Assembly (NCBI GenBank): GCA_026708005.1
Contig: JAPOVR010000107.1
Span: 1-64,000, forward strand
DNA length: 64,000 nt
Direction of reading: 5' to 3'
Origin: Actinomycetes bacterium
GTDB lineage: Bacteria > Actinomycetota > Thermoleophilia > Gaiellales > Gaiellaceae
Shown here: piece after piece, positions 3,194 to 64,000 of the stretch
Numbering within the stretch: the stretch's first letter is position 1
Layout: each line of letters opens with the position of its first letter
Position numbers and translations under genes: made by a program
The notes under the pieces: generated by a model
Told to the model about the DNA's origin: nothing
Seen by the model: the letters and a program-made list of their open reading frames with translations, nothing else
Databases searched by the model: none

Positions 3194-3207
3194 ATTCCGT
3201 GCGGAAT
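3194..3207. promoter_or_regulatory. Short palindrome ATTCCG-TG-CGGAAT upstream of HNH gene
   Basis: A perfect 6-bp inverted repeat with a 2-base centre, 85 bases upstream of the HNH start codon on its leader side. It could be an operator; no regulator is assigned. Confidence 0.3.
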
Positions 3208-3240
3208 CGTAACGGCCGCGTCGCGCCCGCGGGCAGCAGC

Positions 3241-3290
3241 TCCTCGAGATCGGGAGGCAGGGGTCTCCTCGAGATCGGGAGGCAGGGGAT
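3241..3290. repeat. 25-bp tandem repeat, two units
   Basis: Two adjacent near-identical units, each beginning TCCTCGAGATCGGGAGGCAG, at 3241-3265 and 3266-3290. They sit in the 283-base gap between the HNH and DUF4446 genes. They look like a recent slippage duplication. Confidence 0.85.
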
Positions 3291-3392
3291 GTCTCGCGTC
3301 GCTCCCGCGCCCGCGCGCACACCAGCGGCAGACCGCAGGCTCCCCGCCAGCACCGGCGCGCCTCAATCAGATTCGCGTAGGCCCGGTCGTGC

Positions 3393-3875: not shown

Positions 3876-3915
3876 GGATCGTCTCGAGGGGCTACTAGCC
3901 GGCCGCTTTCACAGA

Positions 3916-5133: not shown

Positions 5134-5245
5134 CCGAGTCTAACAGCCGCTACCCCTGTCACTGAGGGGATCGGTAGGCACGGCGTCGCGTGCCAGGTGG
5201 CCAGGCGGGCAGGAGATCCGCCGGTCGCGGCTAATTCGCGAAGCG

Positions 5246-7072: not shown

Positions 7073-7190
7073 CGTCTTCGACCCTGGCTCTGCGAGCCGC
7101 GAGCGTCTCCCCAGGCATGCGATACAGGGTGATCCAGCATCTACACTCGCTCGCAGGAGGTTTCCGCCGTCTCCTCAACCCGTGGGCGTA

Positions 7191-8428: not shown

Positions 8429-9606
8429 AGATCGGCCAGCACGCGGGCCTCACCGATACGGGGCGCACGCGTCTGCGCAACGAGGACGCCTTCGTGCGCA
8501 GCCCGCCGCTGTTCGTCGTCGCCGACGGGATGGGAGGTGCTCAGGCGGGAGCGCTCGCGGCGCACATCTCGGTGTCCGTGTTCGAGGGGGCTGCTGGCGC
8601 AGAGGTGCCCGATGCAGCGTCGCGGCTGCAGGCGCTGGTGCAGGAGGCGAACCGGCAGATCTTCGCCCGCTCACAGGACGACCCCTCGCTGACGGGGATG
8701 GGGACGACCACAACGGCCGCCCTGGTCGAGGGCTCACAGGTCGTGATCGCGCACGTCGGCGACTCTCGTGCCTACCGGATCCGAGACGGCACGATGACGC
8801 AGCTCACCGACGATCACTCACTCGTTGCCGATCTCGTCCGGGGCGGACGACTCACCCCAAACGAGGCCGAGCTGCACCCCCAGCGGTCGGTCATCACCCG
8901 CGCGCTCGGCACCGATGAGAGCGTGACCGCCGATCTGCTCTCGGTCGAGGGGCGCCCAGGCGACATCTTCATGCTCTGCACGGACGGTCTCACCACGATG
9001 CTCTCCGATCAGACGATCACGGACACGATCGTGGAGGCTCGCGGGGCCGAGGAAGCGGCAGAGACCTTGGTCAAGGCGGCAAACCGCGGCGGCGGGGAGG
9101 ACAACATCACCGTGCTCCTCTTCGATCTCGTCGATGATGCTTGGCAGCCGGGCGAGCAGCCGCCAGCGCCTGAAGTAGATGCGGAGGCGAACACGCTCTC
9201 CGAGCTGGATGAGCTCCCGGTGCTGGATGAGCTGCTGCCAGAGGCGACACGGCCTCCGCACGCGCGGCGGAGACGACGCGTCCGCTCGTTCCGCATCAGC
9301 CGGGCGATGCTGATCGTCTCGCTGCTGGCCACCGTCGCCGCGCTGGCAATAGGAGCCGCGGTCTGGGGAATGCAGCGCGCGCACTTCGTCGGCGCAGACG
9401 CCGACGGGAGGCTCGTCGTCTACCAAGGCCTGCCCTGGAACATCACCGACGGCGTCGGGCTGTACCGGGAGATCTACGTGAGCCCGGTACAGGCGTACCA
9501 GCTCTCCAAGGACGAGCGAGCTGCGCTCTTCGACCACGCGTTGATCTCAGAGAGCGACGCCCGCGAGCGGATCGCGCCGTTCGAGCGCGAGATCCAGCTC
9601 CCGTGA
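8425..9606 (+). CDS. pstP: PP2C-type Ser/Thr phosphatase PstP
   Basis: 393 residues. The cytoplasmic PPM domain (about 1-235) contains TGRTRLRNEDAF, VADGMGGAQAG, HVGDSRAYRI, CTDGLT and GGEDNITVLLF, which supply the metal-binding aspartates. A linker, a single membrane helix (about 292-315) and a short external domain follow. It should reverse phosphorylation by the two kinases of this block. It begins with GTG in a GTGA overlap with fhaB and ends in a GTGA overlap with rodA. Confidence 0.93.
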   Translation: MKIGQHAGLTDTGRTRLRNEDAFVRSPPLFVVADGMGGAQAGALAAHISVSVFEGAAGAEVPDAASRLQALVQEANRQIFARSQDDPSLTGMGTTTTAALVEGSQVVIAHVGDSRAYRIRDGTMTQLTDDHSLVADLVRGGRLTPNEAELHPQRSVITRALGTDESVTADLLSVEGRPGDIFMLCTDGLTTMLSDQTITDTIVEARGAEEAAETLVKAANRGGGEDNITVLLFDLVDDAWQPGEQPPAPEVDAEANTLSELDELPVLDELLPEATRPPHARRRRRVRSFRISRAMLIVSLLATVAALAIGAAVWGMQRAHFVGADADGRLVVYQGLPWNITDGVGLYREIYVSPVQAYQLSKDERAALFDHALISESDARERIAPFEREIQLP

Positions 9607-10931
9607 GCCTCCGCAACCGCGAGCTCCTGAACCTGTCGGGCGCGAGCGTCCTGATCGCGCTCGGCTTCGTCAGCGTCTTCCTCGCTCGACAGGCGGCGCT
9701 CTCGCCAGCGTCGCTCTCCTACCTCGCCATCTTCGTCGGCATCTACTTCGCGGCGCACCTCGTCACGCGGATCGCGCTGCCCAACGCAGACCCGTTCTTC
9801 CTGCCGCTCGCCGCGCTGCTCACCGGCGTCGGCGTCACGATGATCTACCGGATCGACCCTGATCGAGCGCTGCGTCAGGGCATCTGGGTTGCGGTTGGCC
9901 TCGCCGTGTTCGTCGTGGTCAGCGTCTTCCTGCGCGATCACCGACAGCTCGAGCGGCTGAAATACACGCTCGGCGTCCTCGCCGTCATCCTGCTGATCCT
10001 GCCTGCGGTGCCAGGCCTCGGCCGCACGATCAACGGCGCGACGCTCTGGATCGATCTTGGCCCGTTCGTCTTCCAGCCGGGCGAGATCGCGAAGGTCCTG
10101 CTCGTCGTCTTTCTCGCAAGCTACCTCCGCGACCATCGCGAGTCGCTGCGCGGCGACGGCTCAGCTCGGCTGCCCTCGCTCAAGCACCTCGGGCCGCTGC
10201 TCGTGATCTGGGGCGGCGCGATGCTGGTCCTGCTCGTCACGAACGACCTAGGCAGCGGCCTCCTGTACTTCTCGGTCTTTGTCGCGATGCTGTACGTCGC
10301 GACGGGCCGGCTGCTCTTCGTCACAGGCGGCGCAGCCCTCTTCGTGCTCGGGGCGCTCGCCGTCTACCGCGCGACGCCCCACGTTGCCGAGCGTGTCCAG
10401 ATCTGGCTCAGCCCCTGGCAGGACCCGAGCGGCGCCGGGTACCAGCTCGTCCAGTCGCTCTACGCGATTTCCTCGGGTGGGCTGTTCGGCAGCGGGCTCG
10501 GACGCGGCGTGCTGGTGGCTCCCGACGGGTCCACCTACGTGCCGTACCTGGAGACCGACTTCATCTACTCGGCCCTCTCCCAGGAGCTGGGACTGGTCGG
10601 CGCCTCGGCCGTTGTCCTGGTGTTCCTGATCGTCGTCTACCGAGGGTTGCGAACCGCGATGCTCGCTGACGACGGGTTCACGAAGCTGCTTGCGGCAGGC
10701 CTGACCGCGACGCTCGGTTTGCAGGCCTGCTTGATCACGGGCGGCGTGACCGGGCTGATACCGCTCACCGGCATCACCCTCCCGTTCGTGTCCTACGGCG
10801 GGTCGAGCATCGTCGCCAACTTCCTGCTGCTCGCCCTCTTGCTCGCGGTCTCAGACCGCGTGAACCGTCGGTCCTTCGGCAGCTGCAACGCCGCCGCTGC
10901 GTGGCCATGGCAGCGCGAGAGGACCGCGTGA
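9603..10931 (+). CDS. rodA: SEDS glycosyltransferase, RodA/FtsW family
   Basis: 442 residues with about ten membrane helices. It polymerises lipid II into glycan strands in partnership with a class B PBP. SEDS signatures are visible: FQPGEIAKVLLVVFLA in the central part, and STYVPYLETDFIYSALSQEL containing the conserved acidic residue before the late helices. The position directly before pbpA argues for RodA over FtsW. The C-terminal tail is charged. Its stop overlaps the preferred pbpA start by four bases (GTGA, 10928-10931). Confidence 0.9.
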   Translation: MSLRNRELLNLSGASVLIALGFVSVFLARQAALSPASLSYLAIFVGIYFAAHLVTRIALPNADPFFLPLAALLTGVGVTMIYRIDPDRALRQGIWVAVGLAVFVVVSVFLRDHRQLERLKYTLGVLAVILLILPAVPGLGRTINGATLWIDLGPFVFQPGEIAKVLLVVFLASYLRDHRESLRGDGSARLPSLKHLGPLLVIWGGAMLVLLVTNDLGSGLLYFSVFVAMLYVATGRLLFVTGGAALFVLGALAVYRATPHVAERVQIWLSPWQDPSGAGYQLVQSLYAISSGGLFGSGLGRGVLVAPDGSTYVPYLETDFIYSALSQELGLVGASAVVLVFLIVVYRGLRTAMLADDGFTKLLAAGLTATLGLQACLITGGVTGLIPLTGITLPFVSYGGSSIVANFLLLALLLAVSDRVNRRSFGSCNAAAAWPWQRERTA

Positions 10932-12415: not shown

Positions 12416-14908
<2,493 letters not shown>

Positions 14909-27643: not shown

Positions 27644-27766
27644 CCTTCCTCATCGAGAGCAGCCGCAGGGGTTGCCCCGACCGCTGCTCTGCAGGTCTGC
27701 GCCTCAGCTGGGGCGATGCCATAGCCAGCCACGTCAGGGCCCCGACCGAGCGACGCGGCTCCGTCT

Positions 27767-27867
27767 GTGCAGAGTTGGCGCAGTTTCGTGACGCTTCCGT
27801 GACAGGTCACGCGCAAGCCGTGCGCCTTTTTGGGCTACCCCCCAGGGTGGTGAGTGGGTTGCCCTTT
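27767..27867 (+). repeat. Interspersed repeat, copy A
   Basis: One of eight copies of a roughly 105-bp element. Copy A has GTTGGCGCAG, then GTGAC-N6-GTGAC, the hairpin GCGCA-AGCCG-TGCGC (27811-27825), then the CTACCCCCC and GGGTGG part. Its G-tract is degraded. Homology with copy B continues for about another 100 bases to the right (to about 27965). Confidence 0.85.
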
Positions 27868-28247
27868 CAGGTGGCTTGGCGGTTGCGCGCGGCGCCGCCC
27901 TTGGCTTGACAGCCTGGCTCGCTGACCGGCTCGAAAGCCTGGCTCGGCGGTGTGGCCCGACACGACACGGGGAGCGGGTTGCAGCGCGGCCGGCCAGCTC
28001 AGCGCCACAGTCCGCCGCCACACGACCCGCGCTGGCCACCAACCGCTGCACGGCAGCACCAGAATCCCACGGGCAGAACAACCGAGACAGGTCGTGCACG
28101 TCGCTCGGGCCTCGGCCACAACAGGCGCCTCTCCGCGATGCTCGCCCGGAACGACAGGGGGCGCCAGTCTCGGTCAGGCTGCGGGTGGTTGGACGACCGC
28201 GGTCGAAGCGACTCCCTCTGCGAGCCGGACAGTGCTATCCTCAGGCA

Positions 28248-32543: not shown

Positions 32544-32626
32544 CCAGAGGGGCTGGCCCAGCAGCTGTGCAGAGTCGGCCGATCAGGACGACTTCGTCGC
32601 GTGGCTCCCAAGGTGACCCTACGGCG

Positions 32627-32729
32627 GTGCAAAGTTGGCGCAGTTCCGTGACGCCTCTGTGACAGGCCGCGCGCAAGGCGTGCGTCTTGCTGGACTACCC
32701 TCCCCCGGGTGGGGGGTGGGTTGCCCTTT
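32627..32729 (+). repeat. Interspersed repeat, copy B
   Basis: Same order of blocks as copy A: AGTTGGCGCAG, GTGAC-N6-GTGAC, hairpin GCGCA-AGGCG-TGCGT, CTACCCTCCCCCGGGT and a G-rich end. Similarity to copy A extends right to about 32830. It lies upstream of and in line with the cytochrome c gene. Confidence 0.9.
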
Positions 32730-32976
32730 CAAGCGGCTCGGCGACTTCGCGCGGCGCCGCCTTTGGCTCGCCGACCTGGCCTGGCAGCCTGGCTCGCCGA
32801 CCGGGCTCAGCGGCGTGGCCCGGCGGGGCCGTTCGGCGGCTTGGCCCGACCGACGGCTCAGGCGCGCCGCGAAGAACCCACACGCCCATCCAGTGCAGCT
32901 CTCGGGCTGGCTCCCAGCCCGCTCTTTCCTTGCTCACTCGCCGTGCCCGACAGCCGAGCGGGTAGATTTCGCCTCC

Positions 32977-34251: not shown

Positions 34252-34735
34252 GGCCGTCTCCTCCGCGTGGACTACGGGAAAGGTACCACCGCGCGCCCGA
34301 CACGAGTCGACCCGCAACAGGGCCGAACCCCGTCGGGCGACGGTCGCCAGCCGGGCGAAGCCGTCAAGCCGCCGTAAGGGACACCCCTCCCCCACCCACA
34401 CCCGGGGGAGGGTAGTCGACAAAGGCGCACGCCTTGCGCACCATCTATCACGGAAGCATAACGAGACTGCGCCAGCTTTCAACAGCTGGGGCGAGCACGC
34501 CAGACCAAGCACAGCCGGGGGAGGCACAGCCGGAGCCGCGCCGCACAGCCGGAGCCGGGCCGGCCAAGCAGTAGCGCAGAGCGGCACCGTTCAGCCAGAG
34601 CGCAGAACTGGAGGCAGTGAAGGCAACGCCGAGAAGAGGGGCAAGCCCGTTGGCAACCCTGGGATTAGAGGCCAACCCCGCCGGCTACCTCCGCGAGGGG
34701 CGCCCCGCGGTCGGCGCGCGGCTCTGCTGAGCGCG
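34252..34735. other. Non-coding gap with copy C
   Basis: About 480 bases between the cox3-type gene and the USP-like gene, both on minus. Holds interspersed repeat copy C; to its right are short direct repeats such as CACAGCCGGAGCCG around 34520-34565. No gene seen. Confidence 0.55.
34380..34490 (-). repeat. Interspersed repeat, copy C
   Basis: Minus orientation, with GCTGGCGCAG, a mutated GTGAC motif (GTTATGCTTCCGTGAT), hairpin GCGCA-AGGCG-TGCGC, CTACCCTCCCCCGGGTGT and a G-rich end. It is upstream of ctaE on the same strand. Confidence 0.85.
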
Positions 34736-39630: not shown

Positions 39631-40418
39631 GCTGGACACAGGCGAGCACCCAGCTCCGTGGCAGGCGGGCCTGGTGGGAACCCCAGGCGCCGCGCTCTGG
39701 CCGGGCCTTGGCGGAGGCCGGCCGTGTTGGGGTGACCCGGCCTCGGAGAGGATTCGGATGAGGCCGTCCGGCCAGGCCGGGGCCGCCCTGGTCTGGATGG
39801 AGCCGCAGGGATCGTTCTTCTCAGCGCTCTCGACGCACCTTCGCGCGCTAGGCGAGCCGCGCGAGCATGGACGCGGCCGTGCCCCGCCCGTGGCCCATCC
39901 TCGCGCGCGGAGCGATTCTCCGCGCTCCCTCGTCTCGCAATGCCCAGTCGCGCGTTTCCCGATCCCGGGATTCCCGGTCCCTCCCGCCAGCCAATCGGGG
40001 CGGCGGGACAGCGCGGCCCGGAGTCGGGGCCGGCCAGCGCGACCGCGCAGACTTGGCACGGTTTCGTGACGCTTCTGTGACCAGTTGCGCGAAAGCCATG
40101 CGCTTTCATCGCGTACCCTCCCCCGGGTGGTGGGTGGGGGGCGGGCCACCTCTCGTTGCGGCTCGGCGGCGCGTCACAGCGGCACGGAGGGAGGGCGCTC
40201 CTGGCAGCCACACCAAGGACGGGTTGCCGGAGACGGTCCGTGCAGCGGGCGCAGCAGCACGGCGGCTTGGCTCGGCGCCCAAGCAGGTCGCAGGCAGACG
40301 ACCTCACACGACGGCCCGCGGCCCGCCCGTCACAGCAGCTGAGCCAACCCAGCGACCAGCCGCCGCCGCGGCAGCGGCGAGAAGGACGCAGACGAGACCA
40401 CCTGGCTGGGCTCTCCAG
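39631..40418. other. Long non-coding gap with copy D
   Basis: Nearly 790 bases between MFS and MDR genes (both minus). Contains copy D. No coding signal; frames on both strands are shadows. Confidence 0.5.
40045..40150 (+). repeat. Interspersed repeat, copy D
   Basis: Plus orientation: ACTTGGCACGG, then GTGAC-N6-GTGAC, a hairpin around GCGC-GAAAGCCA-TGCGC, TACCCTCCCCCGGGT, and a G-tract (GGGTGGTGGGTGGGGGGCGG) that meets the G-quadruplex pattern. Confidence 0.88.
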
Positions 40419-43519: not shown

Positions 43520-45109
43520 ATGTCGGACACGCGCGTCGACGAAGGCCTCCAGGACGACGAGGACGCTGGCCGCCGGGAGCCCACCGACGCGCAACTACGG
43601 CGCGGGCTCGGAGGGCTCGCGAGCGACGTGGCCTTCTACGGCACAACGAGGGTGTTCCTCAAGTCGCTCGCGTTCCTGCTCGTCCCGCTGTATGCGCACT
43701 TCCTGACGCCAGCCGAGTTCGGTGTCCTGGAGCTCGTGCTCGCGGTCGCTGCCCTCGTCGACGTCGTGATCGCAGCCAACATGGACGGCGTCTTCGCCCG
43801 CTTCTACTTCGACCAAGAGGGGAGGCTGTGGCGACGCAAGATCATCACGATTTACTTCCTCGTCGAGAGCCTCTACCCGGCCATCGTCGTCGGTGTGCTG
43901 ATCGGGCTCGCCCGCGTCCTCTCGGAGGCCGTCTTCGGCGTCGAGATCTACGCGTTGCTCTTCATCGTCGTTCTCGTCGACGTCTACCTGACGAACATCG
44001 TCGACCTGCCGATGACGCTTGCGCGCCTGCGGCGCAAACGCGCGACGTTCGCCTTCTACTCGCTGACCCGCGGACTCACCCAAATCGTCATCAGCGTCCT
44101 CCTCGTCGCCGTCTGGGAGCTAGGGGTGAAGGGCATCCTCATCGCATCGCTGGCCGCCGTCGGCGTGGCCTTCGTGATCACCGCCCGCGAGTGGGTGCGC
44201 GACCTCGTTCGCCAGATCGACTGGCGCGTCGCGAGGGAGATGATCTCGTTCGCCTGGCCGGGCATCATCGGCGGGCTCGCCTTCTACACGCTCAACCTGG
44301 TCGATCGGTTCTTCATCCAGCACTACCATGGACTTGCCGACAGCGGGCTCTACGGCATCGCGTTTCGCTACAGCCAGATCGTGATCGTGGCCGTATTCGC
44401 GTTCCGGCTGGGCTGGGCCCCCTGGCACTACCCGTGGCTCAACACCGACGGGCATCCCAGCATGGTCGCTCGCGGCGCGACCTACTACTTCTTCGTCGTC
44501 GGGTTCCTCGTGGTGCTCACCTCCACCTGGATCCGCCCCGCCTTCGAGCTGATCCTGCCTGAGGACTTCCACGAGTCCTCGCGTGCCGTCGCACCATTGG
44601 CGCTCGCAGCGATGGCCACCGGCGCGCATCGCGTCTTCAAGGTTGGCATCGCAGTCAAGAAGCGCATGCGGCTGATGGCACCCCTCGCGGTTATCGCAGC
44701 CGGCCTCGCGATCGGTCTGTACTTCCTGCTGATTCCACCCTTCAGCTTCGTGGGCGCCGCCTGGGGAACGGTCGCGGCGCTCGCGGCGTTCGCGCTGCTC
44801 GTCCTCGCCGTTAGCCAGCGCCTCTACCCTGTCCCGTGGGACTGGTACCGCATCCTCCTCGCGGCCGGCGGCGCCGCTGGTATCGCGCTGGCCGCGCTCG
44901 CCATCGACGCCTGGGTCGGCATGGCCGTCTCGATCGGCCCACGGGTCGGCCTGACGCTGGCCTTCCCGCTCGCGTTGCTTGCGCTCGGGTTCTTCCCGCC
45001 GGATGATCGAGCCAAGCTACGGGCGATCGCGCGCCGCCTCGCGAGCCGCGTTCGGGGAAAGCCGCACGACCCGGCAGGCCGCGGCCCAGGCACCGAGGCC
45101 CCTACCTGA
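43520..45109 (+). CDS. Polysaccharide flippase (MATE/Wzx-like)
   Basis: 529 residues with about 12-14 membrane helices, of the MOP superfamily. N-terminal FLLVPLYAHFLTPAEFGVLE and YGIAFRYSQIVIVAVFAFRL are typical of oligosaccharide-lipid flippases. Probably exports the lipid-linked repeat units of the polysaccharide made by this region. It ends eight bases into the convergent sulfotransferase gene. Confidence 0.85.
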   Translation: MSDTRVDEGLQDDEDAGRREPTDAQLRRGLGGLASDVAFYGTTRVFLKSLAFLLVPLYAHFLTPAEFGVLELVLAVAALVDVVIAANMDGVFARFYFDQEGRLWRRKIITIYFLVESLYPAIVVGVLIGLARVLSEAVFGVEIYALLFIVVLVDVYLTNIVDLPMTLARLRRKRATFAFYSLTRGLTQIVISVLLVAVWELGVKGILIASLAAVGVAFVITAREWVRDLVRQIDWRVAREMISFAWPGIIGGLAFYTLNLVDRFFIQHYHGLADSGLYGIAFRYSQIVIVAVFAFRLGWAPWHYPWLNTDGHPSMVARGATYYFFVVGFLVVLTSTWIRPAFELILPEDFHESSRAVAPLALAAMATGAHRVFKVGIAVKKRMRLMAPLAVIAAGLAIGLYFLLIPPFSFVGAAWGTVAALAAFALLVLAVSQRLYPVPWDWYRILLAAGGAAGIALAALAIDAWVGMAVSIGPRVGLTLAFPLALLALGFFPPDDRAKLRAIARRLASRVRGKPHDPAGRGPGTEAPT

Positions 45110-46046
45110 GCTCGTAGCCCAGCGTGCGTGCGACCGGGGCGACGATCTCGTTGATCGACGCGATCTCCTCGGGCGAGAGCCGTTCGAGGCTGCGCGCGTT
45201 GTAGTCCTGGAGCCTGGCGGTCGTGCGGTCGATCGTGTGCGACGGGAGCGGCTCGTCGAGGGCTGCGCGGTCGATCGGCTGCTCGAGCTCGAGGAACGCC
45301 TCGACGCCGGCGAGGACCCTGTGTGGCTCGGCGCAGAACTCCTCGTAGGTGACCAGGCGGAATCGGTCGAGCTCCCGCGCGTCAGCCAGCATCGTGCCGT
45401 TCCCTCGCGCCCAGTGCCGGGCGGCGTCCTCGAGGGCGAACCCCCCTCGGCGTCGCATGCCCTCGCAGACGGCGTACGGATGACGGACGATCGCGAGAAA
45501 GCGGCTGGGAGCAAAGAACGCCTGCAACCAGCGCGACCGAACGGAGTTCGGCGGGCTCTTCTCGAGCACGATGCCGGGCCGCCGATCAAGGTAGAACGCC
45601 CAGTCGTACCGCGCCCGCCGAGCGGCCTCCGGGGCGCTCTCGCCGGTCCAGTGGAAGTCGTCGAGCCGAGCCGTCCAGTTGCGGCGGACGCCGAGCTCGG
45701 CTCCGGTTGGGAGCGCACGCGTGAGCGCCTGTCCCTCGGCCGGAAGCGACCGGATCAACGGATGCGTCTCGAGGACGTGCGCCAGAATCGATGTCCCGGA
45801 GTTGTTGAGCCCGAGCACGAACAGCCAGAAGTGGTTGCCGAACGCAAGCCGCTCATCGGTCCACCGCTCCAGGGCGGCCTCCCCCCGAACGAGCCAGCGC
45901 AGCTCGTGCAGCGGCCGAGAGGCGAACGTGCGCGGCGTATACACCTTCTGCCAACGACGGAGCCGCCTGTGCACGCGATTTCGGCGGCGGCGCGGGGCCG
46001 AGCTCGCCGCAGCAGCCGGCCTCGGCTCCGGTGCCACCCGCCTCAA
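45102..46046 (-). CDS. Sulfotransferase family protein (1)
   Basis: 314 residues. PAPS 5'-phosphosulfate loop-like LFVLGLNNSGTSILAHVLET and a later SRFLAIVRHPYAVCEGMR (3'-phosphate loop) are seen, the sulfotransferase pattern. It would sulfate a carbohydrate or lipid at the membrane. Overlaps the Wzz-like gene by four bases on the same strand. Confidence 0.8.
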   Translation of the reverse strand: MRRVAPEPRPAAAASSAPRRRRNRVHRRLRRWQKVYTPRTFASRPLHELRWLVRGEAALERWTDERLAFGNHFWLFVLGLNNSGTSILAHVLETHPLIRSLPAEGQALTRALPTGAELGVRRNWTARLDDFHWTGESAPEAARRARYDWAFYLDRRPGIVLEKSPPNSVRSRWLQAFFAPSRFLAIVRHPYAVCEGMRRRGGFALEDAARHWARGNGTMLADARELDRFRLVTYEEFCAEPHRVLAGVEAFLELEQPIDRAALDEPLPSHTIDRTTARLQDYNARSLERLSPEEIASINEIVAPVARTLGYELR

Positions 46047-47107: not shown

Positions 47108-48511
47108 GTGAGCGCCATCTCCCCGGCCGCCGCTGGCCGCGCCCACCCTGGAGCGCGGATCTCGAGTCTTCCGCGCGTGGCGGCTGGACTCCTGCTGACG
47201 ACGGTCTTCGTCATCACCTTCGCCAAGGTGCGATGGACGGTCTCGGATGCGGACGTCAACATCTCCGACATCGCGGCGTCGCTCTTCGTCGTCGCGTTCC
47301 TCGCCACGAGAGTCGAGCAGGGTGACACACGGCTCCCCCGAGCGTCGCTCGTCCTCGGCGGGTTCTTCGCGGCGCTTGCCCTCGTCTACCTGATCGGGTT
47401 CTTCAACATCGATGCTGCGGACGGGCGAGACCAGTTCTTCAGGGGCTTCGTCAAATTCATCATCCACTTCGCGTTCCTCACGACAGCCGTCGCGCACCTC
47501 GCGCGCCGCTCCGAGGCCTTCTACTGGAAGACCCTCGGCTGGTTCATCGGAGGGATGACCGCCAACGCGCTCTACGGCGTGCACCAGCTCGGCCTGATCG
47601 AGACCTCCGGCCGCAACCTCGACCAGATCGTGCTCTCCGCGATCGGGAGCTACCAGCGCGGCGGCATCAACATCTTCGGAGCGGTCGAGGGCGCGAACGT
47701 CTATCGAACCAACGCGCTAACGGGAGACCCAAACCACCTCGCGATCATGCTGATGATCCCGCTGCTCGTGATCCTGCCCCTGTACCTGCGTCTCGAGCGG
47801 GGACACCAACTCCGCGCGCCGCTTGCCCTCCTGCTGGCCTTCCTCGCGTTCGTCGAGCTCACAACCCTGTCACGCAGCGGCCTGCTCGGGCTGGCCGCCG
47901 GTCTCCTCGTTCTCGCGTTCCCCTACCGACACCGGCTGCTCTCCACGCGCCTGCTCGCGCCGGTCGCGGCGCTGCTGGTTGCGGTGGGCGCGATCGTGGG
48001 CCAACGGACGAGCTTCTTCGAGACCGTGCTCCGATCACGCGCGACCGTCGGCGGCAGCTCGAGCCGCGTTCACCTTGAGATCTACGAGCTCCTGCCGCCG
48101 GTGCTCGACCAGCATCCGTTCTTCGGCCTCGGTCTGAACACGTTCTCGACGTTCTTCGAGTTCGTCACGGGCCGGACGAACTTCGGACCGCACTCGTACT
48201 ACATCTCGCTCCTCACGGAGACGGGGATCATTGGCACAGCGGTCTTCGGGGCGTTCATCGTCTACCTCTTTCTCCGGCTCGGCGTGCTACGCGACATCGG
48301 CCGGGCGCTCAGCGCCGCCGGCGATGGGCTGGCCGCACGCGTCTCACCCCTCGCCTGGGGTATGACAGCAGCCCTCGCTGGCACGCTGGTCGCGAACGCC
48401 TTCTACCTCACGCTCCAGTTCCACTACATCTTCGTGTTCGCGATGCTGATCGTTGCTGCCCCAATCGTCTTCTCTCGCAGCCGCTCGCCAAAGCCGGACT
48501 TCTCGTCGTGA
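47108..48511 (+). CDS. O-antigen ligase/polymerase-like protein
   Basis: 467 residues, about 11-12 membrane helices. The Wzy_C motif region includes a long external loop with SSRVHLEIYELLPPVLDQHP and FFGLGLNTF, then GPHSYYISLLTETGIIGTA, characteristic of Wzy/WaaL enzymes that polymerise or attach lipid-linked glycans. GTG start at 47108. Overlaps the second Wzz-like gene by four bases (GTGA). Confidence 0.85.
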   Translation: MSAISPAAAGRAHPGARISSLPRVAAGLLLTTVFVITFAKVRWTVSDADVNISDIAASLFVVAFLATRVEQGDTRLPRASLVLGGFFAALALVYLIGFFNIDAADGRDQFFRGFVKFIIHFAFLTTAVAHLARRSEAFYWKTLGWFIGGMTANALYGVHQLGLIETSGRNLDQIVLSAIGSYQRGGINIFGAVEGANVYRTNALTGDPNHLAIMLMIPLLVILPLYLRLERGHQLRAPLALLLAFLAFVELTTLSRSGLLGLAAGLLVLAFPYRHRLLSTRLLAPVAALLVAVGAIVGQRTSFFETVLRSRATVGGSSSRVHLEIYELLPPVLDQHPFFGLGLNTFSTFFEFVTGRTNFGPHSYYISLLTETGIIGTAVFGAFIVYLFLRLGVLRDIGRALSAAGDGLAARVSPLAWGMTAALAGTLVANAFYLTLQFHYIFVFAMLIVAAPIVFSRSRSPKPDFSS

Positions 48512-49389
48512 CGCATCGGCACGACCTGCCCCCGAACGCAGTCGACGCCGAGCGGGAGGTTGACCTTGCCCGGATCGGGCGCGCCCTGCTCGCACGGTGG
48601 TGGCTGATCGCAGGAGCGACGTTGATCGGCATGGCGGTGGGCGCGCTCATCGCTCGGGGCGGCGACCCCGTCTTCCAGGCCCAGTCGACCATCTACCTCG
48701 GCCAGCCTCTCTCGGCAGCCGGCACCCACCAGGTGCAGAACATCCAGCGCAGCTCGGCCGCGGCCGCGCGAATCATCAAGGCCCCGGCGCTGGTGGTAGA
48801 GGTCGCAGCTTACGTCGGGCTCGATGCGGACGCGCTTGGAGACAGCATCTCCACCCGGGTTATCCGCCGACCCAGCGATGCGGCCGGCGAGGGCGACCTC
48901 ATGGAGATCATCGTCCGTGGCCCGTGGCAGCAGAGGAGCGAGAAGGCCGCAAACCGGCTTGCGGAGTCCGCTGTCAGCCAGCTCTCAACCTACGCCGACT
49001 CGAAGATCGCCGACCTCGAGGGCGAGCTTCAGGTTGAGAAAGCAGAGCTCGCCGCGCTCGAAGGGCAGATCGCAGAGCTCGAATCGTCGATCGCGTCGGG
49101 GGACGACGAGGCGGAGCGGCTCCGCCTCCAGACCGTGCTGAGCCTCCGTGAGGAGCAGCGGGCTCGGCTGATCGAAGACCGCGTTGCCACGGAGCTTGGA
49201 CTTGCGGTCGCCCGCGACATCGAACGCGGTCGGGTCGTCACCGAGGCGGCATCTCGCCAGGTCGATGCCCGTAACCGCACGACCTCGATGGTTGTCGGCG
49301 CCTTCATCGGGCTCATTGTCGCCACGGTCGGCGCCTTCGGATGGAGCGCCGCGGCCCGGCACCTCCGCCGCGGCTTGCAGGGGCGCTAA
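48508..49389 (+). CDS. Wzz-like chain length determinant (2)
   Basis: 293 residues. Two membrane helices (about 33-52 and 264-283) flank a coiled coil with LEGELQVEKAELAALEGQIA. Paralogue of the 46043-46948 protein, with the VRGPWQ motif conserved. Starts with GTG overlapping the polymerase stop. The two copies lie on opposite sides and strands of the polymerase gene. Confidence 0.78.
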   Translation: MTHRHDLPPNAVDAEREVDLARIGRALLARWWLIAGATLIGMAVGALIARGGDPVFQAQSTIYLGQPLSAAGTHQVQNIQRSSAAAARIIKAPALVVEVAAYVGLDADALGDSISTRVIRRPSDAAGEGDLMEIIVRGPWQQRSEKAANRLAESAVSQLSTYADSKIADLEGELQVEKAELAALEGQIAELESSIASGDDEAERLRLQTVLSLREEQRARLIEDRVATELGLAVARDIERGRVVTEAASRQVDARNRTTSMVVGAFIGLIVATVGAFGWSAAARHLRRGLQGR

Positions 49390-49713
49390 GAGCAGCAAGG
49401 CTGGGCGGAGAGCTCAGCCGGGTTGCCCGGTCTGGGCAGTTCTCGCCCCCCCCCGTGGCGGAGTCGTGGCGGCCTCGGGCAGGTGGCCCGGGGGCGGTTT
49501 GAGCTTGAGAGGGAAAGGGCGCGCAGGCATCCCGCCGAGGCACCGCGTCGCGGAGTCAAGCCGACTGCAGTCTGTTTCACGGGCTCCGGGGTGCGGCGGG
49601 CCAAGCGGCGGCGTCGAGCTGCTCCGCAGAGCGCGCGGCCTAGCGTGCACCATCAGCGCCTACCTCGAGGGCGTGTGGCTGCCGCGCGGCGCGCGGCCCT
49701 GGCCTCCACAGAG

Positions 49714-49817
49714 GGCAGCCCGCCCCCACCACCACCCGGGGGAGGGTAGCCCACAGCGACGCAAGGCTTTCACACGATCTGTCACAACATCGTCACGAGA
49801 CTGTGCCAACTCCGCAC
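49714..49817 (-). repeat. Interspersed repeat, copy E
   Basis: Minus orientation: GAGTTGGCACAG, GTGAC-N6-GTGAC, a diverged hairpin region, CTACCCTCCCCCGGGT and a G-rich end reaching GGGCTGCCC. Lies between two convergent genes. Confidence 0.88.
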
Positions 49818-49831
49818 GGCTACTTCACCGA

Positions 49832-50498: not shown

Positions 50499-51617
50499 TC
50501 AGGAGGAACGCTCGGCAGGTGGCCAGACGGTCCCCGCCGAGATGATCGTGCCCGAGGCCACGTCGGCCCGCAGCACGCAGCCGTTGCCGACGATCGCGCC
50601 TGCGCCGATGCGAAGACCGACAGGTGCCGTCACTCCCATACCTACCAACACTTCGCCACCCACCTCGACCTCCCCGGCCAGGATGGCACCAGGAGCAATG
50701 TGCGAGTACTCACCGATCACGCAGTCGTGCGAGACAACAGCCCCGGAGTTGATGATCACCCCGCGGCCGATGCGAGCGTCGGCGCCGATCACGACGCCCG
50801 CGAACACCTGAACGCCCGGCTCGAGGCGCGCCGAGGAGGCAACCGAGGCACCGGGATCGACGACCGTCGCTAACTCGAAGCCCTCGGCCCGGAGCACATC
50901 GAAGATCGCGGCGCGCTCGTGCATGCGCCCAATCGCACCCACAGCGTTAAGGGCGAGCCGAAGCCCGGCCGAGCGCAGCGGCGAGAGGTACTCGCGCCCA
51001 CCGAGGATCGGCACGCCGAGCAGCTCGGTGCGCTCGCCAGGCTGGTCGTCCAGCACGCAGAGCGGCTCAAGCTCGTCACCCGCGCGGAGCAGCTCGATCA
51101 GCGACTTGGCATGGCCGCCGGCGCCGAAGATGACCGCGGTCAGGTCGTGGACGGCGGCGGACAGTCCCTCATCCAGCTCGACCTCGCCCGCGGCCTCTTC
51201 GATCAGCGCCTGCACGTCGGCCTCGGTCACGAAGCGATGTGTGGGCAAGAGCGAAAGATCGACGTCGTTCTCGCGAGCGAGCCTCTCGGCCTTTCGCGTC
51301 ATCTTGAGGCCCCTCGGCGTCGCTACCGCCGGCCGAGCCGTGACCTGCGAGGCGGCTGGCGCCGACTCGTAGAGCTCGCAGATCACATCGCCCGCGGTCA
51401 CTCGCTCATCGAGGGTCACCCTCAGCCCACCGACGTACCCCTCGAGGTGCGACTCGACGACAACCGTCGCCTTGCTCGTCTCGAGTGTGCAGACAGCCGT
51501 GCCCTGCACAACGTGCGAAGAGTGCTCGACGGCGATCTCGACAACCTGCGCCTCGGGCTCGTTGGGGTTGATCAGCGGAGCAACGATCTGCCCCAGCACC
51601 TTCGGTGTGCTGCTCAT
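50499..51617 (-). CDS. Lipoyl/PSBD-fused PglD-like sugar O-acyltransferase
   Basis: 372 residues, three parts. First a biotinyl/lipoyl domain (about 5-85) with the lipoylation-type motif LETSKA; second a peripheral subunit-binding-like segment (about 98-140, TPRGLKMTRKAERLARENDV, LPTHRFVTEADV); third a PglD/NeuD-type domain (about 158-372) with VIFGAGGHAKSLIELLRAGD and left-handed beta-helix hexapeptides (VVIGADARIGRGVIINSGAV). The last family acetylates sugars. The first two belong to 2-oxoacid dehydrogenase E2 proteins, so the fusion is odd. The ATG at 51617 overlaps the sulfotransferase stop. Confidence 0.82.
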   Translation of the reverse strand: MSSTPKVLGQIVAPLINPNEPEAQVVEIAVEHSSHVVQGTAVCTLETSKATVVVESHLEGYVGGLRVTLDERVTAGDVICELYESAPAASQVTARPAVATPRGLKMTRKAERLARENDVDLSLLPTHRFVTEADVQALIEEAAGEVELDEGLSAAVHDLTAVIFGAGGHAKSLIELLRAGDELEPLCVLDDQPGERTELLGVPILGGREYLSPLRSAGLRLALNAVGAIGRMHERAAIFDVLRAEGFELATVVDPGASVASSARLEPGVQVFAGVVIGADARIGRGVIINSGAVVSHDCVIGEYSHIAPGAILAGEVEVGGEVLVGMGVTAPVGLRIGAGAIVGNGCVLRADVASGTIISAGTVWPPAERSS

Positions 51618-52636
51618 CGCTGTGCCAGGCCAGACCCCGCCTCCGAGCACGACGCGAGCGCTTCCTCGACCTGAGAGCCGAACTCGGCCCTGACGTCGTC
51701 GACGACGTGGCGCTCGAAGTGCGGCAGCGACGTCCTCCGCCACGCCGGCGTATGGCCGTGCGAAGCGAGCAGGTCGCGGGTCTGCGCCAGCACGCTCATC
51801 GGATCGGCACAAAGCTCTTCATAGCGAACTGTCGCGACCCGCTCGGGTCCAAGCCGGGCTGCGGCGTCCTCGAGGGTTCGCTCGAGCCGCAGCACCTGCA
51901 AGGCAACCTGTCGCGCGGGGGGCTCCTCCTCGAGCCACGACGGGCCGCCGGGCCGTAGCGATGCCCATCGTTCGTACGTCCCGAACATGCCCATGCGCAT
52001 GCGCAGCAACGAGAGCGCGGTCTCCGCCGGATCGCGGCGGATCCACACCATACATGTCCTCGGCATCGATCGGACGGCAGCTTCGAGATGCCACATCAGC
52101 AGCATCGGCTTGAACGCCATCGGCTTTCCCGCAACGGCTGCCATGTTGACGATGACGCGGCACAGCCCAGGCCAGTCGATGGTGGCTTCGTGCTCGGGAG
52201 GACGCTCACAGAGGTCCGGGTAGCGCAGGTGCGCATTCCAGAAGTAGCCGAACTCGTGCGGCTCGGCGATCCCAGCGGTGCGCCCGAAGGTGGAGCCAAA
52301 CGACGAGGCGGCGTTGTCCACTCCCAGCTTCTGAGCGAGCAGCAGGCCGTACACGGGCGCTCGCCAGAACGCCGCGACGAGGTTCGTGACGTAGGCAACG
52401 TCGAGGCCGTGAGCGATCGTCTGGTAGAGCAACGTCGTTCCCGACCTCGGGACGCCCACCACGTGCAGGGTCGGGAGCTCCTCGTCCACGTCTGCGTAGT
52501 CAGCATCCGCGTACGGCGCGAGCACCGAGTTCAGATGCTCCAGGAACCGTTCGGCGGCGGGGTCCTTCGAGAACGGGTCGGCAAGCGGCGGATCGCAGCG
52601 CCGCTCGCGTGCATGCTGGACAGGAGCAGAGGCCAT
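51614..52636 (-). CDS. Sulfotransferase family protein (2)
   Basis: 340 residues. Phosphosulfate loop LHVVGVPRSGTTLLYQTIAH near residue 60 and RTCMVWIRRDPAETALSLLRM for the 3'-phosphate contact. Probably modifies the same surface glycan or a lipid. Not closely similar to the first sulfotransferase by eye. Overlaps the acyltransferase fusion by four bases (ATGA). Confidence 0.82.
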   Translation of the reverse strand: MASAPVQHARERRCDPPLADPFSKDPAAERFLEHLNSVLAPYADADYADVDEELPTLHVVGVPRSGTTLLYQTIAHGLDVAYVTNLVAAFWRAPVYGLLLAQKLGVDNAASSFGSTFGRTAGIAEPHEFGYFWNAHLRYPDLCERPPEHEATIDWPGLCRVIVNMAAVAGKPMAFKPMLLMWHLEAAVRSMPRTCMVWIRRDPAETALSLLRMRMGMFGTYERWASLRPGGPSWLEEEPPARQVALQVLRLERTLEDAAARLGPERVATVRYEELCADPMSVLAQTRDLLASHGHTPAWRRTSLPHFERHVVDDVRAEFGSQVEEALASCSEAGSGLAQR

Positions 52637-53003
52637 AGCGCACGTACCAGCCTAGTCTTCGCTGGGTACGAGAGTCGACCGTGGCTTGGCGCGGTGCAAG
52701 CCGCCACAGGCCGCCACGAAAGCCACGAAGGGCAGCCCGCCCCCCACCCACCACCCGGGGAAGAGTAGCCCAGAAAAGCGCAGGGATTGCGCGCGATCTG
52801 TCACAGAAGCGTCACGAAACCGCACCCACTCTGCGCGGGCACTACAGCCGCTGGAGTGCGGGTTGGTCACTGGGTCGCGGCTGGCCGACCTCTGTCCCGC
52901 GCACCGAGGGCCACAGGATCATCCCAAGCTTGGACAGCTGCGCGGGCAGCCCAGCGCAGGAGCGCACGCTCGAACAGCGAACGGACGTAGGGAGCTCCGC
53001 GCA
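52637..53003. other. Non-coding gap with copy F
   Basis: 367 bases between divergent genes; about 108 of them are copy F. No other feature seen. Confidence 0.5.
52730..52837 (-). repeat. Interspersed repeat, copy F
   Basis: Minus orientation, close to consensus: GTGAC-N6-GTGAC, hairpin GCGCA-ATCCC-TGCGC, CTACTCTTCCCCGGGT, G-tract and GGGCTGCCC. Same strand as, and upstream of, sulfotransferase 2. Confidence 0.9.
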
Positions 53004-54176: not shown

Positions 54177-54824
54177 CAGCCTCGGCTACCTGCCGCCCGA
54201 TCTCCGGCGCAGCCCCGCAGCCACAGGACCTCAGCAACGTTCGCTGTGGCGCAGGCTGGCCCCGGCGCGGCCAGGTGCCACGTGTGCGCATTGGGATGGG
54301 CTGTTCTCGCAGAGCGCCTCGGAGGCCGGGCCAGAGAGCCTTCCAGCGCCAGGACAGGGGGCGGAAGCTGGCTGGTGATGCGCTGTCGGCCTTGCCACGC
54401 GCCCAGGCCCTCCTCCCTCTGGGCTTCGCGGCTCCTCGGCCGAGGCCTGGCCGAGCAGGGTTGGCACAGTTTCGTGACGCTTCTGTGGCAGATAGCGCGC
54501 AATCCGTGCGCTTTTCTGGGCTACTCTCCCCCGGGTGGTGGGTGGGGGCGGGCTGCCCTTTTGCGGTGTTCGTACCTGCTCGACGACTCGCAACGCCCCA
54601 GGAGCGCCGCTAAGCGGCCGCACGCCGGGCTCCACACCAAGCCGCCGAGCCGGGACATCACGTAGAGACACGTCCCGAGGCACCGCCGCCTTCGTCTTCG
54701 CCGCTGACCACGGTTCTGTGCCAAAAAGCGGATCTCTCCCAGCGGCTTCACCAGCAGCCTCGTGCAGGAAAGCGGATAGGCTCCGCCGACGCCGCAGAGC
54801 CCTCCAGCACGCTGCGCCCGCCCG
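54177..54824. other. Non-coding gap with copy G
   Basis: 648 bases between rraA-like and hyuA, holding copy G. No other gene is supported. Confidence 0.5.
54455..54561 (+). repeat. Interspersed repeat, copy G
   Basis: Plus orientation: GGTTGGCACAG, GTGAC-N6-GTGGC, hairpin GCGCA-ATCCG-TGCGC, CTACTCTCCCCCGGGT, G-tract and GGGCTGCCC. Upstream of hyuA on the same strand. Confidence 0.9.
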
Positions 54825-58692: not shown

Positions 58693-59154
58693 CCTGCGCC
58701 AGCCAGCCCAGGCCCTCCCGTCACCGCGCCTGCACCACCCCGGCGCGCCCCGTGCCAGCCCCTGCCCCCGGCGCGCCCGGGCGCGAGGCGCCGCAAAGGG
58801 CACCAGCGCCAGCCGCGGCCAAGGGCAGTCCGCCCCCCACCACCACCCAGGGGAGGGTAGCCCAGAAAAGCGCACAGCATTCGTGCAACTGTCACAAGAA
58901 TGTGACAAAACTGCACCAACGCTCCGCGGCCGCACCGGCCGGCCGTGCCTCCCGGCCGTGCCGACCCAACATGTAGCACTTTCCGAGCGAGGCCTCCTCG
59001 TGCCGCCTCCGCAGCCACGCCGTCTCTGGCCGCGTCCCCAGCTACACCGCCCGCCTGTCGCGCCGGCCGGCCACACTGCCCAGCCACGCCAGCCAGCCAC
59101 ACACCCCAGCCCCCTGCGGCGGGCACGACGCAAGCGCCCACTAGACTCGCCGGC
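58693..59154. other. Non-coding gap with copy H
   Basis: 462 bases before the asparagine synthetase gene. Left part is GC-rich; copy H follows, then a CCAGCCA-rich low-complexity stretch (about 59080-59115). No gene. Confidence 0.5.
58822..58926 (-). repeat. Interspersed repeat, copy H
   Basis: Minus orientation. The 5' motif is altered to GTCAC-N6-GTGAC, and the hairpin is GCAC-GAATGCT-GTGC, so both arms changed together while pairing was kept. CTACCCTCCCCTGGGT and the G-tract follow. Confidence 0.85.
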
Positions 59155-61023: not shown

Positions 61024-62051
61024 TGCGCGTCTGGATCGACATCACCGCTCCGGCCCACGTGCTCGTGTTTCGACCGCTCATCGCGCTGCTGCGCCAGCGG
61101 GGCGCGGAGATCGAGGTCACGACACGCGCCTATGCGCAGACGCTCGAGCTGCTCGAGCTGCACGGCATCGAGGCCCAGCGCCTGGGCCGGCACGGCGGGC
61201 GCTCCCGCGCGGGCAAGTTCCGTGCGCTGGCCTCCCGCCTGCCAACGCTGGCGCGGTGGGCTCGCGGACGCCGGTTCGACCTCGCGCTGGCGCACGGATC
61301 GCACGAGCTGACCATCACAGCCCGTCGCAGAGGCATCCCGAGCGCCACGACCTTCGACTACGAGTATGCCGTCCTGCAGCACCAGCTCGGCTGTCGGGCC
61401 GCAACGCGCGTCGTCGTGCCCGCCGCGATCCCGGTCGATCGGCTCGCGCGCTACGGCGTCAGGCCACCGAAGCTCCTCCAGTACGAAGGGCTGAAGGAGG
61501 AATACTACCTCGCGGACTTCGAGCCAGACCCGGCAGTGCTCGACGAGCTCGGCGTCGATCTCGAGCGCCTCCTCGTCGTCGTCCGAACTCCGCCCGACGT
61601 GTCGCTTTACCACCGGCGCTCGAACCGCCTATTTCCACAGCTCATCGACCACCTCGCAGCACAGGCCGGCGTTGCGACCGTCGTGCTCCCCCGCACCGAC
61701 GGGCAGCGGGCGTTTCTCCAGACGATCGCCTCGACGGGCCTCATCGTGCCCGATCGAGCCGTCGACGCCCAGAGCCTGATCGGGCTCTCAGACCTCGTGG
61801 TCTCAGCCGGAGGCACGATGAACCGTGAGGCCGCTGCACTCGGTGTGCCCGTGTACACCACGTACGGCGGGCGCCTCGGCGGCGTCGACGAGATGCTGAT
61901 ACGCGACGGGCGCCTCCGTCCCCTCTCCGATCCACACGCGCTCGAGCTCGTGCGGCGACACGAGAGCAGACCTAGAGCGCGCCGCGACCCGGAGGTGATG
62001 CTCGAGCTCCTCCTCGCAGCCGGCGTCGTCTCGACGGAGAAGCGCGGCTAG
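61023..62051 (+). CDS. DUF354 family glycosyltransferase-like protein
   Basis: 342 residues. Two Rossmann-type halves: VRVWIDITAPAHVLVFRPLI at the N-terminus and a C-terminal part with AQSLIGLSDLVVSAGGTMNREAAALGVPVYTT cut by loops, which resembles the donor-binding end of GT-B transferases. DUF354 proteins are found in archaeal and bacterial glycan clusters. GTG start at 61023 shares one base with the asnB stop (TAGTG). Convergent with the dehydratase gene, overlapping four bases. Confidence 0.82.
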   Translation: MRVWIDITAPAHVLVFRPLIALLRQRGAEIEVTTRAYAQTLELLELHGIEAQRLGRHGGRSRAGKFRALASRLPTLARWARGRRFDLALAHGSHELTITARRRGIPSATTFDYEYAVLQHQLGCRAATRVVVPAAIPVDRLARYGVRPPKLLQYEGLKEEYYLADFEPDPAVLDELGVDLERLLVVVRTPPDVSLYHRRSNRLFPQLIDHLAAQAGVATVVLPRTDGQRAFLQTIASTGLIVPDRAVDAQSLIGLSDLVVSAGGTMNREAAALGVPVYTTYGGRLGGVDEMLIRDGRLRPLSDPHALELVRRHESRPRARRDPEVMLELLLAAGVVSTEKRG

Positions 62052-63931
62052 CGGTGCTCCGAGAGGGTCTCGCGCGCCTCGGCGGTCGGCCCGCGCGGCG
62101 CTGACAAGAGCCCGCCAAGATGGGCGACCACCTCGACGGTCTCCCCGGCCTCGACCAGCCGCTCGAGATCAACGAGCTCCTGCGCAAGCCACGCCGGCTC
62201 GACCGGCGCCGCCAAGCAGCGGAAGATCTTGGGGTGCGTCGTCGGCGCCGGTGTCTCTCCTTCACCCCAGAGGTTCTCTTCCAGCTTCTCGCCGGGCCTC
62301 GGGCCGATGAACTCGATCGCAACATCGGTCTCGGGCTCGAGGCCCGACAGCCGGATCATGTTGTGCGCCAAATCGACGATCTTCATCGGAGCGCCCATGT
62401 CGAGCACGAACACGTCGCCCCCGGAGCCGATCGCTCCCGCCTGGATGATCAGCTGTGCCGCCTCAGGGATTGTCATGAAGTACCGGGCCATCTCCGGGTG
62501 GGTCACGGTCACCGGGCCACCCCTCGCTATCTGGCGCCGAAACAGCGGGATGACGCTGCCCGAGGACGCCAGCACGTTCCCGAAGCGAACCGAGAGAAAC
62601 CGGGTCGTGCTGTTGCCGTCGGCGGCCGCGGAGACGAGCCACTCGCACAGGGCCTTCGACTGGCCCAGGACGTTTCGTGCGTCGACAGCCTTGTCGGTGG
62701 ACACGAGCACGAACGCCTTCACGCCGTGCGCCTCCGTCACCTCGACCATGCGCTTCGTCGCCACGACGTTGTTGCGAACCGCCTCCAGCGGGTTGGCCTC
62801 GATCAGCGGCACGTGTTTGTAGGCGGCCGCATGGAAGACGACAGCAGGGCGGTAGTCGGCGAAGATCTCCTGCAGCTTTGCCCGGTTCTTGACGTCAGCG
62901 AGCACCGGGACGACCGCCGCAAAGCGGCGTTCCTCCACGAGCTCGCGGTCGATCTCGAAGAGGTTGTTCTCTGCGTGGTCAACGAGAATGACGCGCTCTG
63001 GCTGAAGAGAGGCGATCTGACGACACAGCTCAGAGCCGATCGAGCCACCGGCGCCGGTAACCAGCACCGTCTCTCCTCCGATGTAGGAGGCAATCGACGG
63101 CAGATCGAGCCGTACCGGCTCGCGGCCCAGGACGTCCTCGACCTGAACCTCGCGCAGCTGTCGCGCCAGCTCGAGGTCGCCGGAGATCAGCTCGTTGACG
63201 GTCGGCAGCGTCTTGACCGGCACGCCCGAGTCCCGGCAGGCATTGACGATGCGTTGGCGCGTATCCCCGGCGGCGGACGGTATCGCGATGATCACCTCCG
63301 CGGGCCGCACGCTCTCGAGGATGCTGCCAAGCTCGTCGGTTGTGCCGAGAACGCGAACCCCGTGAAGCCGCAGGTTCTGCTTGCGCGGATCGTCGTCGAC
63401 GAGCCCCACCGGCCGGTAGCGCAGGCTCCTGTTGCGCTGCATCTCCTTGATGATCAGGGCGCCGGCATCGCCGGCTCCGACGATCAGCACGCGCGTTCCT
63501 GCCGCTCTGCCGAGCCTGCCCGAAAGCGGCCGCTCGACCAGCGTTCGTGCGAGAACACGCGCGCCACCGACGAGGGCAATCGCCAGGATTCCATCGATCA
63601 GGAACACGCCGCGCGGAAGTCGAACGACGTACGGGTCCCAGAGGAGAATGACGAGCGCCGCAACGAGCGCTCCGAAGGCGCATGCGCGCACGACAGCCCA
63701 GATGTCGCGCAGCGATACGTACCGCCACCAGTGATTGTACAGGCCGAAGGCCACGAGCACCGCCAGCTTGATGCCGACGACGGTCGCAAAGATCTCGAGC
63801 TCGAGGTACCCCTGGTAGAAGCGCGGAATCATCTGCTCGAAGCGCAGCTGGAACGCGGCCCACCAGGCAAGGGTGATCAGCCCAGCATCAACCGCGGCCT
63901 GCCAGATCCGGTAACGGTTCATCAGTTTCAT
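62048..63931 (-). CDS. CapD/PglF-like nucleotide-sugar dehydratase
   Basis: 627 residues. Four N-terminal membrane helices, a first Rossmann domain with VLIVGAGDAGALIIKEM, and a catalytic SDR domain with VLVTGAGGSIGSELCRQIAS and FHAAAYKHVPLIE. The active region is STDKAVDARNVLGQSKALCE where PglF-type enzymes usually have AVNPTNxMGATK; Lys is kept, the Met is Leu. Predicted to make UDP-4-keto-6-deoxy sugars at the membrane. Its start overlaps the next gene by ATGA. Confidence 0.9.
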   Translation of the reverse strand: MKLMNRYRIWQAAVDAGLITLAWWAAFQLRFEQMIPRFYQGYLELEIFATVVGIKLAVLVAFGLYNHWWRYVSLRDIWAVVRACAFGALVAALVILLWDPYVVRLPRGVFLIDGILAIALVGGARVLARTLVERPLSGRLGRAAGTRVLIVGAGDAGALIIKEMQRNRSLRYRPVGLVDDDPRKQNLRLHGVRVLGTTDELGSILESVRPAEVIIAIPSAAGDTRQRIVNACRDSGVPVKTLPTVNELISGDLELARQLREVQVEDVLGREPVRLDLPSIASYIGGETVLVTGAGGSIGSELCRQIASLQPERVILVDHAENNLFEIDRELVEERRFAAVVPVLADVKNRAKLQEIFADYRPAVVFHAAAYKHVPLIEANPLEAVRNNVVATKRMVEVTEAHGVKAFVLVSTDKAVDARNVLGQSKALCEWLVSAAADGNSTTRFLSVRFGNVLASSGSVIPLFRRQIARGGPVTVTHPEMARYFMTIPEAAQLIIQAGAIGSGGDVFVLDMGAPMKIVDLAHNMIRLSGLEPETDVAIEFIGPRPGEKLEENLWGEGETPAPTTHPKIFRCLAAPVEPAWLAQELVDLERLVEAGETVEVVAHLGGLLSAPRGPTAEARETLSEHR

Positions 63932-64000
63932 GGGCTCGCTTCGACCACAACTGCCGCCCGTCCTGCGGCGGCAACCTTCTCCTGGTCGGCGCGGCCGATC
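63928..64000 (-). CDS. Partial gene, C-terminal end
   Basis: Only the last 23 codons are in the window: IGRADQEKVAAAGRAAVVVE then ASP and a TGA at 63930-63928 that overlaps the dehydratase ATG (ATGA). The overlap shows it is the upstream gene of the same operon. The sequence is too short to assign, though such an Ala-rich end is common in glycosyltransferases. Confidence 0.55.
   Translation of the reverse strand, partial: IGRADQEKVAAAGRAAVVVEASP

Follow-up and report, generated by a model that had tools for sequence, protein, structure and literature searches.

A lipoyl-bearing left-handed beta-helix acyltransferase with a dedicated E1 partner suggests acylation of sugars from keto acids without CoA

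The 2-oxo acid dehydrogenase complexes known to us build their E2 on the CAT fold and release the acyl group to CoA, the transfer being the work of the CAT core (PF00198). Sugar N-acyltransferases of the left-handed beta-helix family, to our knowledge, take the acyl group from acyl-CoA or acyl-ACP; known members of the NeuD/PglB/VioB family occur stand-alone or fused to a glycosyltransferase, as in Neisseria PglB, with acetyl-CoA as the donor. Both helix acyltransferases and E2 cores assemble as trimers. Here we describe a gene in a 64,000-nucleotide stretch of actinobacterial DNA (the window, meaning the whole stretch analysed) whose predicted product combines features of both kinds of enzyme. 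Like the E2 of pyruvate and related dehydrogenase complexes, it has the order lipoyl domain, linker, PSBD and acyltransferase core, an invariant lipoyl lysine and a partner E1 alpha/beta pair with an intact ThDP site, but it lacks the CAT core and has a sugar N-acyltransferase fold instead. Like PerB (Caulobacter), PglD (Campylobacter) and VioB, it has a Rossmann-like N-terminal domain, a left-handed helix and a His/Asn pair, whereas the solved members of that group that were found lack the lipoyl domain and PSBD that the fusion carries. Judged by its sequence, the protein is E2-like up to the PSBD; with the CAT core as the criterion it is no E2, and its catalytic part belongs to the NeuD/PglD family. 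No paper on such a fusion was found in the open-access literature, which is weak evidence of novelty since subscription journals lay mostly outside that search.

The gene occupies the minus strand at the coordinates given in the earlier note, running from an ATG at 51617-51615 to a stop at 50499, and it shares its first four bases (ATGA) with the end of the sulfotransferase gene upstream. The lipoyl, PSBD and PglD-type domain order first proposed for it is backed, domain by domain, by sequence profiles and AlphaFold models, as follows.

50499-51617, minus strand: fusion coding sequence ('type A', 372 amino acids), lipoyl domain, linker, PSBD and PglD/NeuD-type left-handed beta-helix acyltransferase
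51369-51599, minus strand: lipoyl domain, residues 7-83 (Pfam, profile of relatives, beta strands in the model)
51471-51473, minus strand: Lys49 in ETSKA, predicted lipoyl attachment site (invariant in 21 of 21 sequences; secondary structure of the model)
51192-51305, minus strand: PSBD-like domain, residues 105-142, predicted docking site of E1 and/or E3 (profile and segment model)
50877-51146, minus strand: PglD_N domain, residues 158-247 (Pfam PglD_N, 4.6e-8)
50511-50870, minus strand: left-handed beta-helix acyltransferase domain, residues 250-369 (Hexapep, 1.4e-14; superposition on PerB, 4ea7)
50727-50729, minus strand: His297, predicted general base (invariant in 21 of 21 sequences; aligned with the PerB His, in the region aligned with PerB and PglD)

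Pfam Biotin_lipoyl matches residues 11-82 of the fusion (E 1.1e-9), and a profile of 14 relatives finds the lipoyl domains of E. coli PDH E2 as its best match (3e-27). The AlphaFold model of the full fusion (5 sequences, mean pLDDT 83.6) contains a lipoyl-type barrel whose Lys49 occupies the turn that joins strands 41-46 and 51-55, and in a structure search this part of the model resembles E2 lipoyl domains. The earlier note had named an N-terminus without a lipoyl fold, along with an unmodified lysine, as what would refute its proposal; model and profile both return a lipoyl fold, and the idea of a lipoyl arm as carrier of the acyl donor was not refuted. A linker around residues 90-99, predicted poorly in the model, precedes the PSBD segment, which is modelled as two short helices (108-116 and 132-142). 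A Pfam E3_binding scan of the fusion protein did not reach E 1, whereas a profile of 16 relatives matched the Thermus E2 PSBD 2eq8_C best (E 0.0046), and Foldseek with a model of residues 98-150 alone returned PSBD-bearing E2 or E3BP structures in its first 15 rows, including 2coo, 1w4i, E1-bound 1w85_I and E3-bound 2eq9_C. The Foldseek E-values are weak (best 0.053, prob 0.99) because the domain is tiny; each sequence score for the PSBD is likewise weak by itself, and profile and fold matches agree. Two NCBIfam E2 models also reach past the lipoyl domain into the part that follows (PDHac_trf_long over residues 20-115, sucB over 21-133). The catalytic part passes the curated cut-off of NeuD_NnaD (NCBIfam, TIGR03570) with 172.7 bits against 160.8 (7e-51), and superposition of the full model on PerB (4ea7) covers 207 residues, with an rmsd of 1.8 and a Z of 30.8. 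PF00198 gave no match in the fusion or its relatives.

The fusion sits in a polysaccharide locus with sulfotransferases, as the earlier note described it; the contig carries a flippase, Wzy, Wzz, two sulfotransferases, a PglF-like dehydratase and a DegT aminotransferase, the last two about 11 kb from the fusion.

43520-45109, plus strand: polysaccharide flippase (Wzx-like)
45102-46046, minus strand: second sulfotransferase of the locus
47108-48511, plus strand: Wzy_C O-antigen ligase/polymerase
48508-49389, plus strand: Wzz chain-length determinant
51614-52636, minus strand: sulfotransferase with the four-base overlap with the fusion (Sulfotransfer_3, 7.7e-15)
62048-63931, minus strand: PglF/CapD-like NDP-sugar 4,6-dehydratase (Polysacc_synt_2, 2.5e-114)
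63928-64000, minus strand: DegT/DnrJ/EryC1 aminotransferase, 3' end, continuing past the window (contig C43, 63928-65013; L017, 928-2013)

The dehydratase may supply a keto sugar and the aminotransferase an amino sugar. A DegT aminotransferase gene also lies directly downstream of the fusion in one related locus (L004). Most relatives of the fusion are found outside polysaccharide loci, several of the cassettes lying beside ribosomal or unrelated genes, and the constant neighbours of the cassettes are sulfotransferases (in Actinomycetota) or a sulfatase; each of the other 11 actinobacterial loci has a sulfotransferase beside the fusion as well. Elsewhere in the window, at 14413-14868, stands a tandem pair of 225-base repeats that are 87% identical.

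The same domain order, which the earlier note had suggested looking for in other genomes, was found in 21 full-length loci. Our survey covered one actinobacterial class, a wider sample of the phylum and Chloroflexota; most of the genomes compared are drafts or metagenome-assembled, and gene calls in the neighbourhoods come from simple ORF rules. Relatives aligning over the whole fusion occur in Actinomycetes and in Chloroflexota MAGs. Type A was found in 12 of the 399 genomes surveyed in the same class, counting the window's own, and in 7 of the 400 that make up the Chloroflexota sample; the order of domains is kept without exception. Lys49, Asn290 and His297 are invariant in all 21 sequences, and so is the NxNE signature ahead of the lipoyl lysine. 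With 21 full-length sequences in separate genomes, a chimera or assembly artefact was ruled out. Among plasmid records none covers 80% of the fusion protein, and viral contigs yielded one helix-only relative.

The neighbourhoods of these loci contain genes for the two subunits of a ThDP-dependent E1, namely an E1_dh alpha and a Transket_pyr/Transketolase_C beta subunit. The pair lies no more than 2 kb from the fusion in 18 of the 21 loci, with E1beta alone where the contig ends (in L003 and L028 the contig end falls inside the E1 genes). In 9 of 9 Chloroflexota loci E1alpha, E1beta and the fusion follow each other in that order along a single strand, about 20-100 bases apart; in nine actinobacterial loci a sulfotransferase-fusion pair stands near the E1 pair, mostly convergent with it and 30-1,900 bases away. 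The three loci without an adjacent pair have one elsewhere in the genome: L044 sits at a contig end and its E1 is at the end of another contig (L096), G175, a genome in one contig, has the pair some 585 kb from the fusion, and the window's own genome has it on contig C7. Within the window, no E1 was found among the ORFs read or the places of E1_dh and Transket_pyr matches in the genome. Across the class, the cassette E1beta occurs in 20 of 399 genomes, and all 12 type A genomes fall within those 20, an overlap whose probability under random placement, kinship ignored, is 4e-18. At 19 of the 20 E1 loci a fusion of type A or type B adjoins the E1 genes or is found within 2 kb; in the twentieth (G382) the contig runs out directly after E1beta.

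Three relatives without a usable lipoyl arm form a natural control, as no E1 is found near them. Two are helix-only (L064 and L066) and the third, L065, has an N-terminal domain without the lysine and no PSBD; a cassette-like E1 is absent within about 9 kb of each. The L065 protein (9001-10113, Chloroflexota) has a lipoyl-like barrel in which GTEEH replaces ETTKA, and from its sequence it looks like a decayed lipoyl-arm fusion. DegT genes like the one beside the fusion in L004, 60-64% identical, lie near L065 and L066.

On contig C7 (L016) the E1 pair belongs to a second version of the fusion, type B, in an operon within 2477-7924 that recurs in further genomes of the class and converges with a PIG-L deacetylase gene. 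The order is sulfatase, E1alpha (3790-4671), E1beta (4677-5696) and type B (5703-7277). The type B protein, of about 520 amino acids, comprises a lipoyl domain, a PSBD-like segment, another left-handed helix and a further C-terminal part, and type B with the same E1 pair was found in nine further loci (L087-L095) and in L003. The sulfatase before it shows a weak match to the C-terminal domain of N-sulfoglucosamine sulfohydrolase (SGSH_C). Since the window's genome encodes its E1 on another contig beside type B, that E1 is tied to the window's protein through homology, and here it would have to work in trans.

The E1alphas of the cassettes group in a single clade (support 100/99, stem 1.62) separate from the genome's other E1alphas. 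The cassette E1 subunits are homologous to human PDHA1/PDHB and the P. aerophilum E1beta (E 2.7e-41 and 2.6e-54) and retain the catalytic residues, but they differ in forming a separate, long-stemmed clade with a GRGYGPTHSQ-type E1beta loop. The ThDP motif GDG..N, E1alpha His236, and E1beta Glu59 and His128 are conserved in alignment with human and archaeal E1, except in the draft genome L095, where one E1beta frame is broken, and by their residues the cassette E1s look active. The cassette E1beta (for example at L016 4677-5696) carries a conserved loop, RGYGPTHSQ, ahead of its catalytic His, and DPYGG close to the N-terminus, unlike the housekeeping E1betas of the genome, and these features are possibly tied to an unusual 2-oxo acid substrate. 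In contrast to pyruvate dehydrogenase E1, the cassette E1 is linked to a helix-type rather than a CAT-type E2: the housekeeping E1s on contigs C128, C12 and C35 have a canonical CAT-type E2 on the same contig, whereas contig C7 has no CAT domain and none of the E1-fusion loci showed a CAT-type E2 gene. Those E1s are therefore without an evident route to acyl-CoA. The genome also encodes LipA, LipB and Lpd.

We consider it probable (roughly 0.7) that the fusion is a hybrid E2, belonging to a small and dedicated 2-oxo acid dehydrogenase system in which a PglD/PerB-type amino-sugar N-acyltransferase has replaced the CAT core. In such a system LipB and LipA would lipoylate Lys49, and the dedicated ThDP-dependent E1, docked on the PSBD, would decarboxylate a 2-oxo acid and reductively acylate the lipoyl arm. 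The arm would then swing on the linker to the helix trimer and enter the active site in place of acyl-CoA, where a nucleotide sugar, its 4-amino group activated by His297, would take over the acyl group from dihydrolipoyl, after which Lpd (E3) would reoxidise the arm. The general background on both families supports the reach of the arm to the helix site and the formation of a trimer. The presumptive acceptor, an NDP-4-amino sugar, is suggested by the PerB/PglD family and the nearby genes. E1 gene linkage across two phyla suggests, at the level of gene order and sequence, that keto acids directly provide the acyl groups put on sugars, with no part played by CoA. We also lean, with somewhat more reserve, towards a general class of CoA-independent glycan acylation in which the 2-oxo acid is decarboxylated and a left-handed beta-helix enzyme passes the acyl group directly from lipoyl arm to amino sugar; it would belong to the dehydrogenase complexes, with an acceptor other than CoA, an E2 core of another fold and at least two versions, type A (PglD-like) and type B. 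The earlier note had raised the idea of a self-carried acyl donor for glycan acylation, and this is supported in part: the donor role gains strong independent support from the dedicated, intact E1, from LipA, LipB and Lpd and from armless relatives without E1, with the placement of E1 on another contig in this genome counting against it; the glycan target fits the PglD/PerB family and the nearby genes and sits less well with the many relatives outside polysaccharide loci.

It is conceivable, though in our view unlikely, that CoA is still the acyl donor and that lipoyl domain and PSBD merely tether the helix acyltransferase to an E1/E3 assembly, for instance near a source of acyl-CoA. The helix domain scores above the NeuD/PglD/VioB cut-off and aligns in structure with CoA-bound PerB and PglD, the characterised members of its family use acetyl-CoA, and the sequence comparison turned up no residue change, at the donor site or elsewhere, that is specific to the fusions. 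Loss of a CoA-binding motif was tried as proof of a new donor and rejected, since the C-terminal AGxxW is common to helix-only relatives and so uninformative on the donor. Against tethering, mere attachment would not require Lys49, which is invariant, and a CAT-type E2 was not seen at the E1-fusion loci.

Acceptance of the acyl group by something other than an amino sugar (a hydroxyl of a sulfated glycan, a lipid or a carrier protein), the PglD-like domain having changed substrate, appears improbable to us. With sulfotransferases as the steady neighbours in Actinomycetota, the acceptor might be something other than a sugar nucleotide, and the sulfatase with its weak SGSH_C-like tail before type B and the cassettes beside ribosomal or unrelated genes point the same way; yet His297 and Asn290 are retained, the nearest structures are amino-sugar N-acetyltransferases, and in L004 a DegT aminotransferase gene follows the fusion directly. 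Far less credible is a biotinylated domain that serves in carboxyl transfer or as a structural element. Biotinyl domains have the same fold as lipoyl domains, and BCCP structures are among the weaker matches, but the biotinylation motif (A/V)MKM is not present, ET[ST]K stands in its place in 21 of 21 sequences, the top profile matches are PDH E2 lipoyl domains, and the linked genes are E1 rather than biotin carboxylase or carboxyltransferase; a biotin carrier was rejected on motif and partner genes.

If the hybrid E2 reading is true, the lipoyl arm would be a third kind of acyl donor for sugars, there would be evidence that the E2 core is an exchangeable trimer, and acyl groups without a cellular CoA form could reach glycans directly from keto acids. 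The gene and domain order E1alpha-E1beta-lipoyl-PSBD-helix offers a clear genomic signature for finding further systems.

That contig C7 is contamination of the bin is unlikely, as an interspersed repeat of about 110 bases, 72-84% identical, is common to the window and C7, and contamination is also disfavoured by relatives with the same genes adjacent (L003 and L094). Counting all sites, this repeat spans about 100-120 bases, is 72-89% identical, and occurs in both orientations at eight places in the window and on C7:

Window 27759-27959, 32619-32822, 34350-34485 and 40043-40159: first sites of the interspersed repeat
Window 49706-49827, 52722-52846, 54437-54560 and 58821-58941: other sites in the window
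L016 9840-9996: site on contig C7
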